Of a stretch of 33,630 bases of DNA, positions 25,034 through 32,764 are shown one piece after another; the stretch's first letter is position 1; each line of letters opens with the position of its first letter. Source of the DNA: Planctomycetaceae bacterium. GTDB lineage: Bacteria > Planctomycetota > Planctomycetia > Pirellulales > UBA1268. Under the pieces are notes generated by a model that had not been told where the DNA came from, did no database searches, and saw only the letters and a list, made by a program, of their open reading frames with translations. The DNA lies in contig JAIXPT010000104.1 in the NCBI GenBank assembly GCA_027486095.1, positions 1 to 33,630 on the forward strand, in the 5' to 3' direction. Both the position numbers and the translations under genes were made by a program.

Positions 25034-25759
25034 CTATCCCGGCGGCCGATGCCAGTGCTTCTTCCCGCGCTGGGAATCCGGGAACGCCGTTCCCGCGCTC
25101 TCAGGCCCAGCCTGGTTGTAGAGCGTCGCCATTCGGACGAGCTCGGCCCCTACAACGCCGAGCTTGGCCACGATCGCCTTGCGGTGCGTGCTGACCGTGT
25201 GCTTGGTGATCCCGAGCGTGTCGGAGATCGCGCGGGTCGTCATGCCCTTCCCGATGAGCTCGAAAATTTCGAGCTCCCGGGGCCGGAGCACCGCGGCCGG
25301 ATTGCGGCCGACACGCTCCACCTGACCGCCCAGCCGTGTGCGCACCACCGCCTCGACTGCATCCCGGAGCACGTCGAGCGGAGCCGTCTTGTCGATCAGG
25401 GCCGCCAGATGCCTAGCGAGGTGCGCCGGACAGACAAATTCATCCGCAGCGCTCGAAAGAACGATGCACTGCAGGCGGGGATGCAGTCTCACCGCGGCCT
25501 CGAGGACGCCCAGCCCGTCGCCGTCGGGCAGCTTGAGGTCGAGAATCAACAGATCGAGATCGCAGTGTGCGGCAATCGCCCTGGCCTCGGCACGGCTCGC
25601 CGCCATGATCACCGAGCCGATGCCGGGAATCGAGCGGAGGACGCCGCCGAGCAGTTGGGCGATCAGGGTGTGGTCTTCCACCACGAGGCAGGCAAGCGCG
25701 CGGCTCCGCGGCAGTGTCGCGGCGACTTCGCAGCCGGGCTCGGGTGGGGGATTTGTCAT
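25034..25759 (-). CDS. NarL/FixJ-type response regulator
   Basis: A 241-residue transcription regulator. The N-terminal receiver domain keeps the acidic pair E28/D29 (VVEDH), phosphoacceptor D74 in LILDLKLPDG, S102/S103 in IVLSSAAD and K124 in LIDKTAP. The C-terminal LuxR-type helix-turn-helix covers about 155-215 (LRPRELEIFELIGKG, TTRAISDTLGITKHTVSTHRKAIVAKLG). The ATG overlaps the stop of the kinase by 4 bases (ATGA), so both are cotranscribed and probably partners. An unstructured tail (GPESAGTAFPDSQRGKK) follows the DNA-binding domain. The likely partner is the tandem kinase pair upstream; target promoters cannot be told. Confidence 0.95.
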   Translation of the reverse strand: MTNPPPEPGCEVAATLPRSRALACLVVEDHTLIAQLLGGVLRSIPGIGSVIMAASRAEARAIAAHCDLDLLILDLKLPDGDGLGVLEAAVRLHPRLQCIVLSSAADEFVCPAHLARHLAALIDKTAPLDVLRDAVEAVVRTRLGGQVERVGRNPAAVLRPRELEIFELIGKGMTTRAISDTLGITKHTVSTHRKAIVAKLGVVGAELVRMATLYNQAGPESAGTAFPDSQRGKKHWHRPPG

Positions 25760-27306
25760 GCTCGCGCCTCGGCAGGCGGGAACGCGAGCCGCACCTCGGC
25801 CCCGCCGAGCGACGAGCGTCCCACCGTCATCGTGCCGCCATGGTTTTCCATGCAGGTGCGCACCAGATACAGCCCGAGACCCGTACCATCGGGTTTCGTC
25901 GTGGCAAACGGGGCTGCCGCGACCTGCTCGGGCGACATGCCGGGCCCCGCGTCGCCCACGATGATCGCCGCACCGTCGCCGTCGGCGAGGATCGTCACCT
26001 CGATCAGGCGTCGGTCGCCAGGCACGCCCGCGAGCGCTTCGACCGCGTTGCGAATCAGGTTGATGATCGCCGTCTGTATCTGCACACCATCACCATCGAT
26101 CCGGACGCTCCGGTCGAGGCCGTTCTCTCGCAGCGAGATTCCATGCTGCAGGAGGAGCGGCCGGGAGAAAAGAACGGCGCTGGCCACCACTTCGCGGACA
26201 TCGACGGGGCCGTGATCGGACTGGACGTTTCGGAGGAGTGCCTTCATCCGCCCGAGCATATCGACCACGTGCCGCGACTCGGCGAGCATGTCTTCGAGGT
26301 AGTCTTCCATCTGCGCCTCTCGCAACGGGGCCTCGCGCAGCCGCTCGATTGCCGCCTGGGTTTCGAGCACGATCCGCCCCAGCGGCTGCTGGATGTCGCG
26401 GGCCGTGGCGGAGGCGGCAAGGCTCGTGCGGAGCTTGCCCTCGAGATCGCGCCGCTCCGCCTCTTCCCGAAGTCGTTCCATCTCGCGGGCTCTGGCCAGC
26501 GACGCTTCGGCCTGCTTCTGCCGGGTGATGTCGATCAGCACGCCCTCCCAGACGGTCGAGCCGTCGGGCAGGCCGCGGGGCGTCGATTCCGCCGTGATCC
26601 ACCGCACCATCCCACCGGCCACGACACGGCATTCGCCGAAAAACGGCAGCTTCTTTGCAAACACCTCGGCGTTTTTTCGCACCCAGTCGTCGTAATCGTC
26701 CGGATGCACGCAGGCGAACGCTCTGAACGGGTCGCGCCGCGCCTCCTCGGCGTCGAGGCCGCAGATTTCCAGAAACCGCTCACTGACGAACTCGAAGCGG
26801 CCGATGCCGCCGTCGGGTGGCTGAACCATCGTGTAGGTGCCGACGGGGATGTTTTCGGTGAGCTCGAATGCCGTGCGCTCCAGTGCCGCCTGCAGTTCGG
26901 CGAGCTTTGCCTCCGCCCGCCGCCGCTCCGAGACGTCGATCAGCATCACCATCAGCAGGTCACCGGTCACCACCGCGTTGAAGACGACGTCGCGCATGGC
27001 ACCGTCACGGCAGGTCGCGCGAAACTCCATCGCCCCCACCGGCCCCGTCACGTCCCGGGCTTCGGTCACGGCCGCATTCCAGGCCGCGAATGCCTCCCGG
27101 CGATACGCCTCGTCTGGATAGGCCAGCTTTGCCCAGTCGCCCATGGTGGGAATATCGGCGAGCGTGTAGCCGACCATCCGTACGAACGGATCGTTGACGA
27201 GCAGGATGCGTGCGCCGTCGCGTGTAGTCAGCACCGCAGGCACTGGCAGCCGCTCGACGAGCGTTCGGATTTCGCAGCCGACGACATGATGATTCGGAGG
27301 AGGCAT
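25756..27306 (-). CDS. PAS sensor kinase with ATPase domain but Arg in place of the phospho-accepting His
   Basis: The 516-residue protein has two PAS-type regions (about 15-125 and 150-262, the second with HPDDYDDWV and TRQKQAEASL), then a dimerisation helix pair and a GHKL ATPase domain. The ATPase domain looks complete: N-box NLIRNAVEAL (residues 416-425), DAGPGM (452-457), and GTGLGLYLV (474-482). The H-box reads SLAASATARDIQQPLGRI, where the family has AHEI..PL: residue 303 is Arg, encoded by CGC, instead of His. It therefore cannot accept phosphate there in the usual way. Upstream paralogue (27324-28436) has His at the same residue number and no ATPase domain, so transphosphorylation between the two is inferred. 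It starts 17 bases after that gene and overlaps the response regulator by 4 bases. No membrane segment is visible, so both kinases are probably cytoplasmic. Confidence 0.93.
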   Translation of the reverse strand: MPPPNHHVVGCEIRTLVERLPVPAVLTTRDGARILLVNDPFVRMVGYTLADIPTMGDWAKLAYPDEAYRREAFAAWNAAVTEARDVTGPVGAMEFRATCRDGAMRDVVFNAVVTGDLLMVMLIDVSERRRAEAKLAELQAALERTAFELTENIPVGTYTMVQPPDGGIGRFEFVSERFLEICGLDAEEARRDPFRAFACVHPDDYDDWVRKNAEVFAKKLPFFGECRVVAGGMVRWITAESTPRGLPDGSTVWEGVLIDITRQKQAEASLARAREMERLREEAERRDLEGKLRTSLAASATARDIQQPLGRIVLETQAAIERLREAPLREAQMEDYLEDMLAESRHVVDMLGRMKALLRNVQSDHGPVDVREVVASAVLFSRPLLLQHGISLRENGLDRSVRIDGDGVQIQTAIINLIRNAVEALAGVPGDRRLIEVTILADGDGAAIIVGDAGPGMSPEQVAAAPFATTKPDGTGLGLYLVRTCMENHGGTMTVGRSSLGGAEVRLAFPPAEARA

Positions 27307-27323
27307 GGCGAGGCCGCAGACTT

Positions 27324-28436
27324 TCAGGGGGCGTCGTGCGCAGGTGCGGCCTGCACCGCTCGCAGTTGCGATTTCATCCGGCCGATCATCTCGACCACAT
27401 GCCTCGCCTCCGCCAGCATGCCTTCGAGGTAGTCGGTCATGTCGTCGCCATCGAGCGGCGAGCTCCGCAGCCGCTCGATGGCAAGCTGGGTTTCGAGCAG
27501 GATGCGGCCGAGCGGCTGCTTGATTTCATGTGCGGTCGCCGCGGCCGTGAGGCTCATGCGAAGCTTGGTCTCGAGGTCGCGGCGATGAGCCTCCTCTCGC
27601 CTGCGTTCGATCTCATGCGCCTCCGCGAGCGCGGCCTCGGCCTGCTTCCGCCGGGTGATGTCGATCATCACGCCCTCCCAGATGTGTCCATCCCCGGGCC
27701 GCTGGCGCGGCTTGGATTCGATCGACACCCAGCGGGTCGCGCCCCGCACGACAATCCGCCCCTCCCAGTACAACCCGCGTCTCTTCGCGATTGCCTCGTC
27801 GCTCTGCCGGACAAACTCGGCTCGTTCATCGGGATGCACGGCCCGAAAGGCGATCGCCGAATCGGCGAGCACGTCGTCACGACGAAGATCAAGCATCTCC
27901 AGCCACCGCTCGCTGACGAACGTAAATCGCGGTCCGTCGTCGCCATGAGCGATGATGTAGGTGCCGACCGGGATCCTGGCGGTCAGCTCAAAAGCCGCGC
28001 GTTCCTGTCGTCGCTCCATCGCCTTCACGGCCGCCTCGGCCCGCCGCCGCACCGAGACATCGGTAAACACCACCATCAGGAACTCGCCGACGACAGCCGC
28101 CCCGAACACGACGTCGCGAGCAGTGCCGTCCTTGCAGACGACGCGAAACTCCATCGTCTCGACCCGCCCGGTCTCGGCGCGTGCTTTGGCGACGGCCGCA
28201 TCCCAGGCAGTGAAGGTCTCGCGGCGATATGCCTCCTCGGGATAGGCCTTCACCGCCCAGTCGCCCACCGTGGGAATATCGGCAAGCGTGTAGCCAAAGG
28301 TGCGCACGAACTGATCGTTGATGATCAGGATGCTGCCCACCTCGTCGAAAGCGTTGAGCGCGGCCGCCAGCGGAAGCCGTTGGATCAACTCCCGAAGGTC
28401 GCTGGCGACGTCGAACGTGTGCACGAGATCAGGCAC
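27324..28436 (-). CDS. PAS sensor protein with intact H-box but no ATPase domain
   Basis: The 370-residue protein is a close paralogue of the next gene: both share FVR.FGYTLADIPT.GDW, PVGTY and VWEGV.IDITR.KQAEA in the PAS regions and line up without gaps through the H-box. Here residue 303 is His (SLTAAATAHEIKQPLGRI, codon CAT) followed by the second dimerisation helix (MLAEARHVVEMIGRMKSQL). The chain then stops at residue 370, exactly at the linker that leads into the ATPase domain in the paralogue, so it has no ATP-binding part. The start is GTG 28436 with GAGGAG 11 bases upstream and no in-frame ATG near. A gap of only 17 bases to the next gene indicates one transcript. It may be a phospho-acceptor for the other protein, or a degenerate duplicate. 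Confidence 0.9.
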   Translation of the reverse strand: MPDLVHTFDVASDLRELIQRLPLAAALNAFDEVGSILIINDQFVRTFGYTLADIPTVGDWAVKAYPEEAYRRETFTAWDAAVAKARAETGRVETMEFRVVCKDGTARDVVFGAAVVGEFLMVVFTDVSVRRRAEAAVKAMERRQERAAFELTARIPVGTYIIAHGDDGPRFTFVSERWLEMLDLRRDDVLADSAIAFRAVHPDERAEFVRQSDEAIAKRRGLYWEGRIVVRGATRWVSIESKPRQRPGDGHIWEGVMIDITRRKQAEAALAEAHEIERRREEAHRRDLETKLRMSLTAAATAHEIKQPLGRILLETQLAIERLRSSPLDGDDMTDYLEGMLAEARHVVEMIGRMKSQLRAVQAAPAHDAP

Positions 28437-28645
28437 GAGATGGCAGTCTCCTCACCATTCATTCTCGCCACGGCTCGTGGGGTCTGGGAACCCGTGTGCG
28501 CGATGCCACCGTGGCTCGCGGCAGGCTCGCTCCCTACTTGTAGCGACCTCTGCGCCCGATTCGTCCCTGCTCAATCCCGTTTGGTCACTTTTACGGCCTC
28601 AATCGGCTCAAAGCCGGTTTCTCTGGCTAGAGTGTCCCCAGGAGA

Positions 28646-31600
28646 ATGGACAGGCTTTTTTCCGCAATGGAGGCAGTGGCGGTCATGAATCCGGATTCCG
28701 TTTTTCGGCGGCTGAGCAGGATGCTTACCCGCGGCATCGTGGTGGTGACAATCTGCATCAAGCTTTCTTGCCTCACAGCCCCAGCATCTGCGCAGATCAA
28801 CGGTGTCAACGACAACGTCGTCGCTGCGAATCTGAATAACTCCGGCTTCTACACGCTGCCCACGATCACCGGTCTCGGCGGCGATCTCACCGTCGAAGGC
28901 TGGGTGTACCTGAGCTCGTATGCCGGCTGGGGCCGCATCGCTGACCTCGGGGGCGGTGAGAACAGCAACAACATTCTGCTTACGACAGTCGGGACGACCG
29001 GGCGGCCTGCGTTCAGTGTGCGCTCCGGCAGCACGGAGATCGGTTTGATTCAGGGAGCCAACGCCCTTGGCACCAACGCCTGGGTGCACGTGGCCGGTGT
29101 CATTCAGACCGACCGCACGATGCGGCTCTACGTGAACGGCACCGAGGTGGCGACGGGCACGGCCACCGGCGATGTTCCCATCGTGAACCGCACGAGCAAC
29201 TACCTCGGCAAAAGCAATTGGTCGGCCGACTCGCTCTTGAACGGCGCCGTGGCCGACGTCCGCGTGTGGAACACTGCCCGCACGCAGGCCGAGATCCAAA
29301 ACAACATGGACGTGGGCTCGGTCACGGGCCCGACGACGGGGCTCGTGGCCGCCTATGCCTTCGGTGCGACGGGCGCAGCGCCCACGACCGACCTCAGCGG
29401 CAATGGCTACACGGCCACGCAGAACGGCAACATTCTCTATTCGAAGTTCGATACGGGCACGCTCACCGCGGGGGGATTCTCCGGTGCAAACACCTCGCTC
29501 AACGTCTCGCAGGGCACGCTCAATTTGACGGGCAACAATCCCGTCCGGGGCGTGACGGTGAATACCGCTGCGATCACGCAGGGAAGCGGATCCGTCACGA
29601 CGTCGCTGCTCGGCGAAGGCGCATTTCAGGTGGGCGTGTCCGCGGGGCAGTCCGGCACCTACACGCTCACGGGCGGCACGATCTCAGTGAACAATGACGG
29701 CCAGGTGCAAATCGGCGCCTCCGGCAACGGCACGATGAACCAGTCTGGCGGATCCCTGACCGGCACGGAGTGGATCGTCGTCGGCCGCTATGCGGGCAGC
29801 ACCGGTATCTACAACCTCTCGGGCGGCATGCTCAATCAGACCGATCCGAACACGAAGCTGATCATCGGCGAGGCGGCCGCGGGCACGCTCACCGTGAGCG
29901 GCAACGGCGTGGTCAACTCGGCAGGTGGCCTTTCGCTGAGCCACGCAGCGGGGGGTGTCGGCACGGTGAATCTCGCCGGCGGTACGATCTCGACGGTGAG
30001 CGTGGTCAAGGGCAGCGGCGGCACAGCCACGTTCAACTTCAACGGTGGCACGCTCAAGGCAACGGGCAACACCTCCGCTTTCATGACCGGACTGAATGCC
30101 GCGGTGCTGCAGGACGGAGGTGGCACGCTCGATGACAGCGGCTTCACGATCACTGTGGGCCAGGCCTTCACCGGCACGGGCGGCCTTACGAAGACGGGCG
30201 CCGGTCGGGTTACTCTCTCCGGCAACAACAGTCACGCCGGCACAACGACGGTCAACGACGGCACCCTTCAGTTAGGTGCTGGATCGAGCGACCTCCGAAA
30301 CAACGCCAGCGACTTCGTGATCAACAACGGTTCCACGCTCACCTTCGGCGGCACCCGGTTCGACCTCAGTGATCAATTCACCGGAGGCCAGCGAACCATT
30401 ACTTTCGGGGCGAGTGGTGGCAGCAAGCTCGATGCTCAAAATGTAAACGTCGTCCATTGGGACGGCACCACCTACCGCACAGCGGGGGGCAGCCAGAACG
30501 CGATCCTCGGCGCGGTGCTCAACCTCAACGCCGGGGCCGTCGCCACCCTCGACGTGACCCGTGGCACTGATGCCGAGAGCGATCTGCTAGTGAGCGCTGA
30601 CTTCGGCAACGCCGGCTCGATCGTCAAGACCGGCAACGGCATCGCGACCTTTGCGGGCAACAACAGCTACACCGGCACCACCACGATCAGCCAAGGCACG
30701 CTGCAGGTCGGTGCCGGCGGCACGACCGGCACGCTCGGCACGGGCAACGTCGTCACCAACGCCACGCTCGCGTTCAACCGCTCGAACGCGATCACGGTGG
30801 CGAATGCGATCTCGGGCTCGGGCACGCTCGTGCAGCGCGGCCTCGGCACGACCACGCTCACGGCCCAGACCACGCACACCGGCGGCACGATCGTGGAGAC
30901 GGGCACGCTTCTGCTCTCGGGGTCCAACCGGCTGGGCCCGGCGACGTCGGCGACGGTGAACTCGCGCGGCACGCTCCGCCTCGACGGCGACCAGACGCTC
31001 GCGAGCATCGGTGGCTCGGGCGCGATCACGTTTGGCTCGAGCGCCAACGGCTACACGCTCACGACCGGCTCCGTGAGCGGCACCTTCTCGGGCTCGATCT
31101 CGGGCAATGGCTACCTCACGAAGGTCGGCCCGGGCACGCTCACGCTCACCGGCTCGAACTCCTACACCGGCGCCACGGCGATCAATGCCGGCGAGCTCAA
31201 GCTCAATGGCTCGCTCGCGAGCGGCTCGCTCGCCCTCGCGGCCGGCGCCACGCTCTCCGGCACCGGCTCGTTCTCCGGCGACGCCACGATCGCCGGTGCC
31301 CACACTCCCGGCAACTCGCCCGGCATCCAATCGATCGGCGGCAACCTCACCTATTCCGCCGGGGCGAGCGTCACCTGGGAACTTGCCGACAACACCGCCG
31401 CCCTGGCGGACCGTGGCGTCGACTTCGACGGCATCAACGTCGGTGGCAACCTCGCCTTCGCCGGCACGTCGCTCCTGAACCTCGCCTTCAACGGCGCCGG
31501 CAGCGTCGTCAACTGGAACGACTCCTTCTGGACCACCGACAAGACCGGCGCGAACGGCTGGCTCGTCTACGACGTCACGGGCTCGACCACGGGCCTCTCG

Positions 31601-31798
31601 GGCCTCGCGGTCAGCGGCACCACCTGGCTCGACGCCGCCGGCAACTCGCTCACCGATATCCGCCCTGACGCCTCCTTCGCCCTCGAGCAGGTCGGCAGCG
31701 ACGTCTACCTCACGTTCGTCGCCGTCCCGGAGCCCTCCTCCATCGTGCTCGTCGGCATCGGCCTCGCCGGCCTCGCGCTCGCCCGCCGACGCACGTAG
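28646..31798 (+). CDS. PEP-CTERM protein with LamG-like domain and beta-strand repeats
   Basis: About 1050 residues from ATG 28646 (CCAGGAGA directly before it); ATG 28685, with GGAGG 11 bases before it, is a close alternative. A signal peptide follows (IVVVTICIKLSCLTAPASAQ). Residues about 60-255 are a LamG/concanavalin-like fold (GDLTVEGWVYLSS, WVHVAGVIQTDRTMRLYVNG, LLNGAVADVRVWNTART), which often binds carbohydrates or surfaces. The rest has autotransporter-associated repeats (GGLTKTGAGRVTLSGNNSHAG, LTKVGPGTLTLTGSNSY) and the GDATIAGAHTPGNSPGI block, and ends in VPEPSSIVLVGIGLAGLALARRRT, a PEP-CTERM sorting signal. Sections match the giant protein at 3327-10265 (NFNGG.LK with AFMTGL, SQGTLQVG, PGNSPGI). 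The last 220 bases recur at 32545-32764. Confidence 0.92.
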   Translation: MDRLFSAMEAVAVMNPDSVFRRLSRMLTRGIVVVTICIKLSCLTAPASAQINGVNDNVVAANLNNSGFYTLPTITGLGGDLTVEGWVYLSSYAGWGRIADLGGGENSNNILLTTVGTTGRPAFSVRSGSTEIGLIQGANALGTNAWVHVAGVIQTDRTMRLYVNGTEVATGTATGDVPIVNRTSNYLGKSNWSADSLLNGAVADVRVWNTARTQAEIQNNMDVGSVTGPTTGLVAAYAFGATGAAPTTDLSGNGYTATQNGNILYSKFDTGTLTAGGFSGANTSLNVSQGTLNLTGNNPVRGVTVNTAAITQGSGSVTTSLLGEGAFQVGVSAGQSGTYTLTGGTISVNNDGQVQIGASGNGTMNQSGGSLTGTEWIVVGRYAGSTGIYNLSGGMLNQTDPNTKLIIGEAAAGTLTVSGNGVVNSAGGLSLSHAAGGVGTVNLAGGTISTVSVVKGSGGTATFNFNGGTLKATGNTSAFMTGLNAAVLQDGGGTLDDSGFTITVGQAFTGTGGLTKTGAGRVTLSGNNSHAGTTTVNDGTLQLGAGSSDLRNNASDFVINNGSTLTFGGTRFDLSDQFTGGQRTITFGASGGSKLDAQNVNVVHWDGTTYRTAGGSQNAILGAVLNLNAGAVATLDVTRGTDAESDLLVSADFGNAGSIVKTGNGIATFAGNNSYTGTTTISQGTLQVGAGGTTGTLGTGNVVTNATLAFNRSNAITVANAISGSGTLVQRGLGTTTLTAQTTHTGGTIVETGTLLLSGSNRLGPATSATVNSRGTLRLDGDQTLASIGGSGAITFGSSANGYTLTTGSVSGTFSGSISGNGYLTKVGPGTLTLTGSNSYTGATAINAGELKLNGSLASGSLALAAGATLSGTGSFSGDATIAGAHTPGNSPGIQSIGGNLTYSAGASVTWELADNTAALADRGVDFDGINVGGNLAFAGTSLLNLAFNGAGSVVNWNDSFWTTDKTGANGWLVYDVTGSTTGLSGLAVSGTTWLDAAGNSLTDIRPDASFALEQVGSDVYLTFVAVPEPSSIVLVGIGLAGLALARRRT

Positions 31799-32527: not shown

Positions 32528-32707
32528 ATGAGCACTCTCGCGGGCTCGGGCCTCGCGGTCAGCGGCACCACCTGGCTCGACGCCGCCGGCAACTCGCTCA
32601 CCACGATCCGCCCCGACGCCTCCTTCGCCCTCGAGCAGGTCGGCAGCGACGTCTACCTCACGTTCGTCGCCGTCCCGGAGCCCTCCTCCATCGTGCTCGT
32701 CGGATAA
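32528..32707 (+). pseudogene. Truncated copy of a PEP-CTERM protein end
   Basis: ATG 32528 opens 59 codons that repeat the parent protein's end: GLAVSGTTWLDAAGNSL, RPDASFALEQVGSD, VYLTFVAVPEPSSIVLVG, then TAA, where the parent continues into IGLAGLALARRRT. The VPEP motif is kept but the membrane helix and Arg tail are lost, so it cannot be sorted by an exosortase. It is likely a decaying duplicate. Whether the short ORF is translated is unknown; no strong ribosome site precedes it. Confidence 0.7.
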
Positions 32708-32764
32708 GCTCTCGCCGGCCTCGCGCTCGCCCGCAGACGCAGGCAGGACGGGCGTGTGCGGGGC
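32545..32764 (+). repeat. Second copy of the 220-bp PEP-CTERM gene-end repeat
   Basis: Direct repeat of 31597-31816. It ends with a decayed form of the palindrome (GACGGGCGTGTGCGGGGC). Together the two copies flank the terminator, hicBA and the CYTH remnant. Confidence 0.9.

Follow-up and report, generated by a model that had tools for sequence, protein, structure and literature searches.

The question raised by this locus is whether two adjacent sensor kinase genes, each lacking a part that the other has kept, encode a pair of defective proteins or the two halves of a single enzyme. The window, by which we mean the whole 33,630-nucleotide stretch analysed here, comes from one metagenome-assembled genome that is 77%-complete and fragmented, and the genes concerned lie on its minus strand. 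In 5' to 3' order the open reading frames are HK1 (27324..28436), with a GTG start and a 370-residue product of PAS-PAS-DHp architecture; HK2 (25756..27306), with an ATG start and a 516-residue PAS-PAS-DHp-ATPase product; and a LuxR-type response regulator (25034..25759), whose 241 residues comprise a receiver and a LuxR/GerE DNA-binding domain recognised by Pfam and by sequence. Seventeen bases separate the HK1 stop from the ATG of HK2, the start of the regulator overlaps the end of HK2 by four bases, and the regulator residues E28/D29, D74, S102, and K124 are all present.

HK1 retains the phospho-acceptor histidine and has no ATPase domain. Codon 303 is CAT (27530-27528), the Pfam matches are to PAS_3 and to HisKA (27.4 bits against a cutoff of 26.9), and Pfam finds no HATPase_c match in the 370 residues. 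In the AlphaFold2 model the DHp region, residues 261-363 (27348..27656, minus strand), is formed by helices at 261-325 and 330-363, the last of which is the second DHp helix and is followed by a tail of seven residues. The ATPase domain of the HK2 model begins at about residue 366, and comparison of the two models places the end of HK1 exactly on the DHp/ATPase boundary; both are single-chain models whose pTM values, 0.38 and 0.44, are too low for the relative placement of the domains to be trusted, and we use the element boundaries alone.

In HK2, codon 303 is CGC (26400-26398), which encodes arginine, and Pfam reports no significant HisKA match in the 516 residues. HATPase_c is matched at residues 405-511 (E 1.8e-17), and the ATPase domain (residues 364-516; 25759..26217, minus strand) keeps all of its motifs (N box NLIRNAVEAL, G1 DAGPGM, and G2 GTGLGL) and matches HK853, ZraS, and YF1/FixL in sequence and fold. 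The DHp hairpin is recognised in both proteins, and the Bergerat ATPase fold in HK2, by Pfam and by AlphaFold/Foldseek. The original prediction had described tandem kinases 17 bases apart followed by a regulator with an intact receiver, an upstream protein with His303 in its H-box that ends at residue 370 before the ATPase domain, and a downstream protein with a complete ATPase domain and Arg303; codons, reading frames, Pfam matches, motifs, and models agree with it on these points.

An orthodox HisKA kinase carries the histidine and the ATPase domain on one chain, and neither protein does so, HK1 having no HATPase and HK2 having Arg303. By domain content the histidine and the catalytic parts lie on separate, incomplete proteins, as in a split kinase. 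The closest named families to HK2 by sequence and fold are the relatives of FixL, YF1, and ZraS, although these are complete homodimeric kinases with the histidine and HK2 reaches no NCBIfam equivalog cutoff, scoring 76 bits against 850 for the FixL family (NF041777) and 58.5 bits against 300 for the XrtA/PEP-CTERM kinase PrsK (TIGR02916). The P1-P5 architecture of CheA is likewise absent from these PAS-PAS-DHp(-ATPase) proteins, and no CheA family is among the profile matches.

Is the shortening of HK1 a biological feature? A 5.5 kb contig of the same assembly (C344, L021) carries a 381-aa homologue, HK1', which is 77% identical to HK1, retains the histidine as a CAC codon, and terminates at the homologous, alignable junction GTGCAGGCCGCACC. 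Directly 3' of HK1' is an HK2-like gene that is 71% identical to HK2 across PAS1, and the locus is flanked by a divergent beta-strand-repeat gene, as in the window. The HK2-like gene is cut short by the end of the contig, whose outermost 150 bases belong to an IS91-like transposase fragment that recurs in the genome; a search of the genome found the remainder of the HK2-like gene nowhere else. We note that an IS91-like transposase is encoded by a 561-aa frame on C58 (L108, 1359-3041), with fragments ending C344 (L021, 1-150) and C282 (L105, 5067-5214). The PEP-CTERM sequences of C344 are near those of contig C59 (86% over 83 aa), and the two contigs fit an origin in the same organism; C344 may instead be contamination by a sister strain. 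In either case the shared junction implies that the truncation is older than the divergence of the two copies, and its identity at C344 rules out a sequencing or assembly artefact.

The comparison of HK1 with HK1' by the Nei-Gojobori method gives a dN of 0.153, a dS of 0.737, and a ratio of 0.21, with identities of 91% in the first DHp helix, 82% in the second, and 78% in PAS2. A dN/dS of about 0.2, the conservation of the first DHp helix, and the junction at C344 together argue that the truncation is not recent decay, and random decay of HK1 is ruled out by the dN/dS and the conserved H-box. By these comparisons the truncation is old and maintained.

The nearest kinases outside the genome, in the planctomycete metagenome assemblies G079 and G082, are single, complete, and His-bearing, with H-boxes reading HEIKQPL or HEINQPL, and they adjoin regulators that are 64% and 59% identical to that of the window. 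Among approximately 26 family homologues the ATPase domain is missing from HK1 and HK1' alone, and HK2 alone has a readable H-box with a residue other than histidine, the H-box being unreadable in a few of these homologues that have runs of N or are partial genes. A tree of the DHp region sets HK1 and HK1' apart from all others with 99% support and places HK2 near G079 with modest support. Other pairs of this type were found neither in 72 family genomes and 397 order genomes nor in a scan of viral contigs, and two scans of genome contigs returned only the single-kinase loci of G082 and G079. A relative carrying the pair with one copy complete, which the original prediction had named as one case that would count against it, was looked for among the 397 order genomes and not found. 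It had also proposed comparing relatives for conservation of both defects; the truncation recurs at C344, and Arg303 was seen once, in one genome and at one locus, the HK2-like gene of C344 being broken off before position 303. The ancestral state, judged from these relatives, is likely a single complete kinase with its regulator, and the kinases of G079 and G082, which probably represent that state, allow direct comparison. We also note in G015 a 1756-aa open frame (contig C164, L023, 5782-11049) with the same PAS-DHp-ATPase module C-terminally; its nearest regulator homologue is on a separate contig, C155.

HK1 and HK2 are approximately 57% identical. Their alignment is not strictly gap-free as had been stated: residue 303 is in register in the two proteins, but small indels that offset one another occur in the N-terminus, PAS1, and PAS2. 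The first PAS domains are related to each other. The second PAS domain of HK2 (residues 145-262; 26521..26874, minus strand) shares 71% identity with a PAS domain from G025 (L026) but 48% with its counterpart in HK1, and a tree groups it with G025 at 99% support. By identity and phylogeny, then, the second PAS domains differ in origin, which implies that the inputs of the two proteins differ and upholds the proposal of two separate PAS inputs. Tandem duplication followed by reciprocal loss is a less happy account: the defects are indeed complementary, but copies of about 57% identity with second PAS domains of different origin are not the product of a plain recent tandem duplication, and the truncation is old. 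The history would be better described as an old upstream truncation (or a duplication that extended only through the DHp), loss of the histidine downstream, and replacement of one PAS domain.

As for the loss of the histidine from HK2, it could be supposed that H303R is a recent loss-of-function mutation or an assembly or consensus error in one population and the system is decaying, or that HK2 is really an intact, ordinary kinase to which HK1 is an accessory, competitive subunit. The substitution does come from one genome in a fragmented assembly, and HK2 corrected for such an error would be an ordinary kinase. However, the HK2 reading frame is open, without stops or frameshifts, and the divergence exceeds a single base, as the entire H-box has drifted (SATARDIQQPL, compared with AATAHEIKQPL in HK1) and the first DHp helix is 67% identical to that of G079 in HK2 compared with 79% in HK1. 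This drift, although few sites are involved, fits relief from phospho-acceptor duty. The dN/dS of the HK2 ATPase domain is 0.22 against G079 and 0.27 against G082, while the complete kinases of G079 and G082 give 0.35 with each other, so that by this measure the domain is constrained no more loosely than the two complete kinases are between themselves; this constraint may reflect the time before the histidine was lost. Taken with the truncation of HK1, which is old and independently maintained, the open frame and the drift of the H-box make damage or error an improbable explanation.

We therefore favour, at a probability of roughly 0.58, the reading that HK1 and HK2 together make up one split sensor kinase, an obligate heteromer to which each contributes half; given what each lacks, signalling probably requires the two to be paired. 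HK1 and HK2 would pair through their DHp helices, with HK2 able to bind ATP but having no acceptor of its own, and HK1 providing the acceptor but unable to bind ATP. The HK2 ATPase domain would phosphorylate His303 of HK1 in trans, across the dimer, and HK1 would hand the phosphate to Asp74 of the adjoining LuxR-type regulator, so that output would require both proteins and may depend on both PAS inputs. HK1 homodimers would not be chargeable and might serve as a phosphatase or sink. In this reading heterodimerisation, trans phosphorylation, joint sensing, and the target genes are inferred.

Experiments in which kinases with different defects were mixed suggested long ago that histidine kinases can act across a dimer. 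CheA complementation is cited in PMC5956149. The proposed mechanism requires trans geometry, and for FixL/YF1, which of the well-studied kinases are the nearest in type, autophosphorylation is reported to proceed in trans (PMC12329595). Transfer of the FixL-type mode to HK2 and HK1 is suggestive, by analogy. Autophosphorylation in cis occurs in some kinases, and if it applied here the mixed dimer would be inactive.

A different division of labour would have HK1 as a phosphotransfer or phosphatase protein (DHp-only, comparable to an Hpt or Spo0B-type carrier) charged by another kinase, with HK2 as a pseudokinase modulator that, for example, sequesters HK1 or takes part in sensing. Such an arrangement would accommodate the maintenance of HK1' at C344, where the H-box of its neighbour lies beyond the contig break, and has precedents in that kinase homologues without the histidine are known to have regulatory roles (DivL-type; structure match 4q20) and that DHp-only proteins are neither rare nor unique, 3.66% of HisKA proteins in SMART having no HATPase (PMC3591291). 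We nonetheless think it unlikely, since a pure modulator would need none of the ATPase motifs, every one of which HK2 retains under purifying selection, and since the DHp most similar to that of HK2 within this genome is encoded in the same operon.

What sets HK1 apart from other DHp-only proteins is that a paralogue with the complementary loss lies next to it. Split kinases are already known, and HK1/HK2 would be an unusual natural version of that design. In Rhodobacter sphaeroides neither CheA3 nor CheA4 autophosphorylates alone, and the histidine is on one protein, which feeds the regulator, with the catalytic domain on the other (PMC3591291); the likeness of HK1/HK2 to this pair is one of domain content. 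CheA3 has no dimerisation and kinase domains and CheA4 no P1 domain (PMC3591291), whereas HK1 and HK2 both retain the full hairpin, each has PAS sensors, and HK2 has lost the histidine and not a domain. FasB and FasC of group A Streptococcus are also products of adjacent kinase-like genes, with a proposed DHp heterodimer in which one kinase domain acts on the other protein's histidine, but FasC keeps a dispensable kinase domain and FasB its DHp histidines (PMC12675982), so that the complementary loss in HK1/HK2 is more complete; the kinase family and regulator type differ as well. PilL-N/PilL-C (Hik36/Hik43) of Synechocystis is likewise encoded by two genes and works with a response regulator, but it is a divided CheA homologue, whereas HK1 and HK2 are paralogous PAS kinases whose defects complement each other (PMC7656254). 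GacS and RetS of Pseudomonas aeruginosa are two different sensor kinases that pair, but each also homodimerises and RetS inhibits GacS, with no obligate complementation (cited in PMC12675982).

Literature searches on 'heterodimeric histidine kinase' and on planctomycete cases returned no matches. That the locus encodes an obligate heterodimeric PAS kinase with the hairpin in both chains, the ATPase domain lost from one, the histidine lost from the other, and one PAS domain exchanged, acting as a two-input AND-type sensor and possibly present at two loci in one planctomycete, is in our view evenly balanced. If so, duplication with complementary loss can make an obligate heterodimer with two inputs out of a homodimeric sensor, and kinase genes annotated as 'defective' may be functional partners.

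Divergent from the operon is a gene at 28646..31798 (plus strand) for an autotransporter-type beta-strand-repeat protein with a PEP-CTERM sorting signal (NCBIfam TIGR02601 and TIGR02595). A divergent gene of this repeat-protein/PEP-CTERM type is also found beside the C344, G082, and G002 loci, and this shared placement makes PEP-CTERM surface-protein genes a plausible target of the regulator. Between the operon and the PEP-CTERM gene, in both the window and C344, is a direct repeat with a 21-bp period, CCCGATTCGTCCC. Direct repeats of the form CCCGATTCGTC[C/A]C, spaced at 21 bp in two to four copies, are present in the window (28552-28587, plus strand), in C344 (L021, 1849-1884), and in C159, C203, C207, and C374. 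They precede, by approximately 90-250 bp, genes that are mostly of the PEP-CTERM/repeat-protein type. The repeat 15-mer has eight exact copies in the genome, and the spaced pattern is found in 27/72 family genomes, with up to 44 per genome and no hits in reversed controls. As judged from this distribution, the 21-bp repeats are a shared, uncharacterised regulatory element. Binding of the repeat by the regulator is unsupported, as the motif-rich genomes G074, G076, G077, and G085 have no close homologue of the regulator. The window also contains, at 32531-32740 (plus strand), a second PEP-CTERM C-terminus; it is a fragment interrupted by an in-frame stop and shares 91% identity with the end of the intact 28646-31798 gene, and a sequence search with the PEP-CTERM C-terminal region gives 63 matches across the genome.
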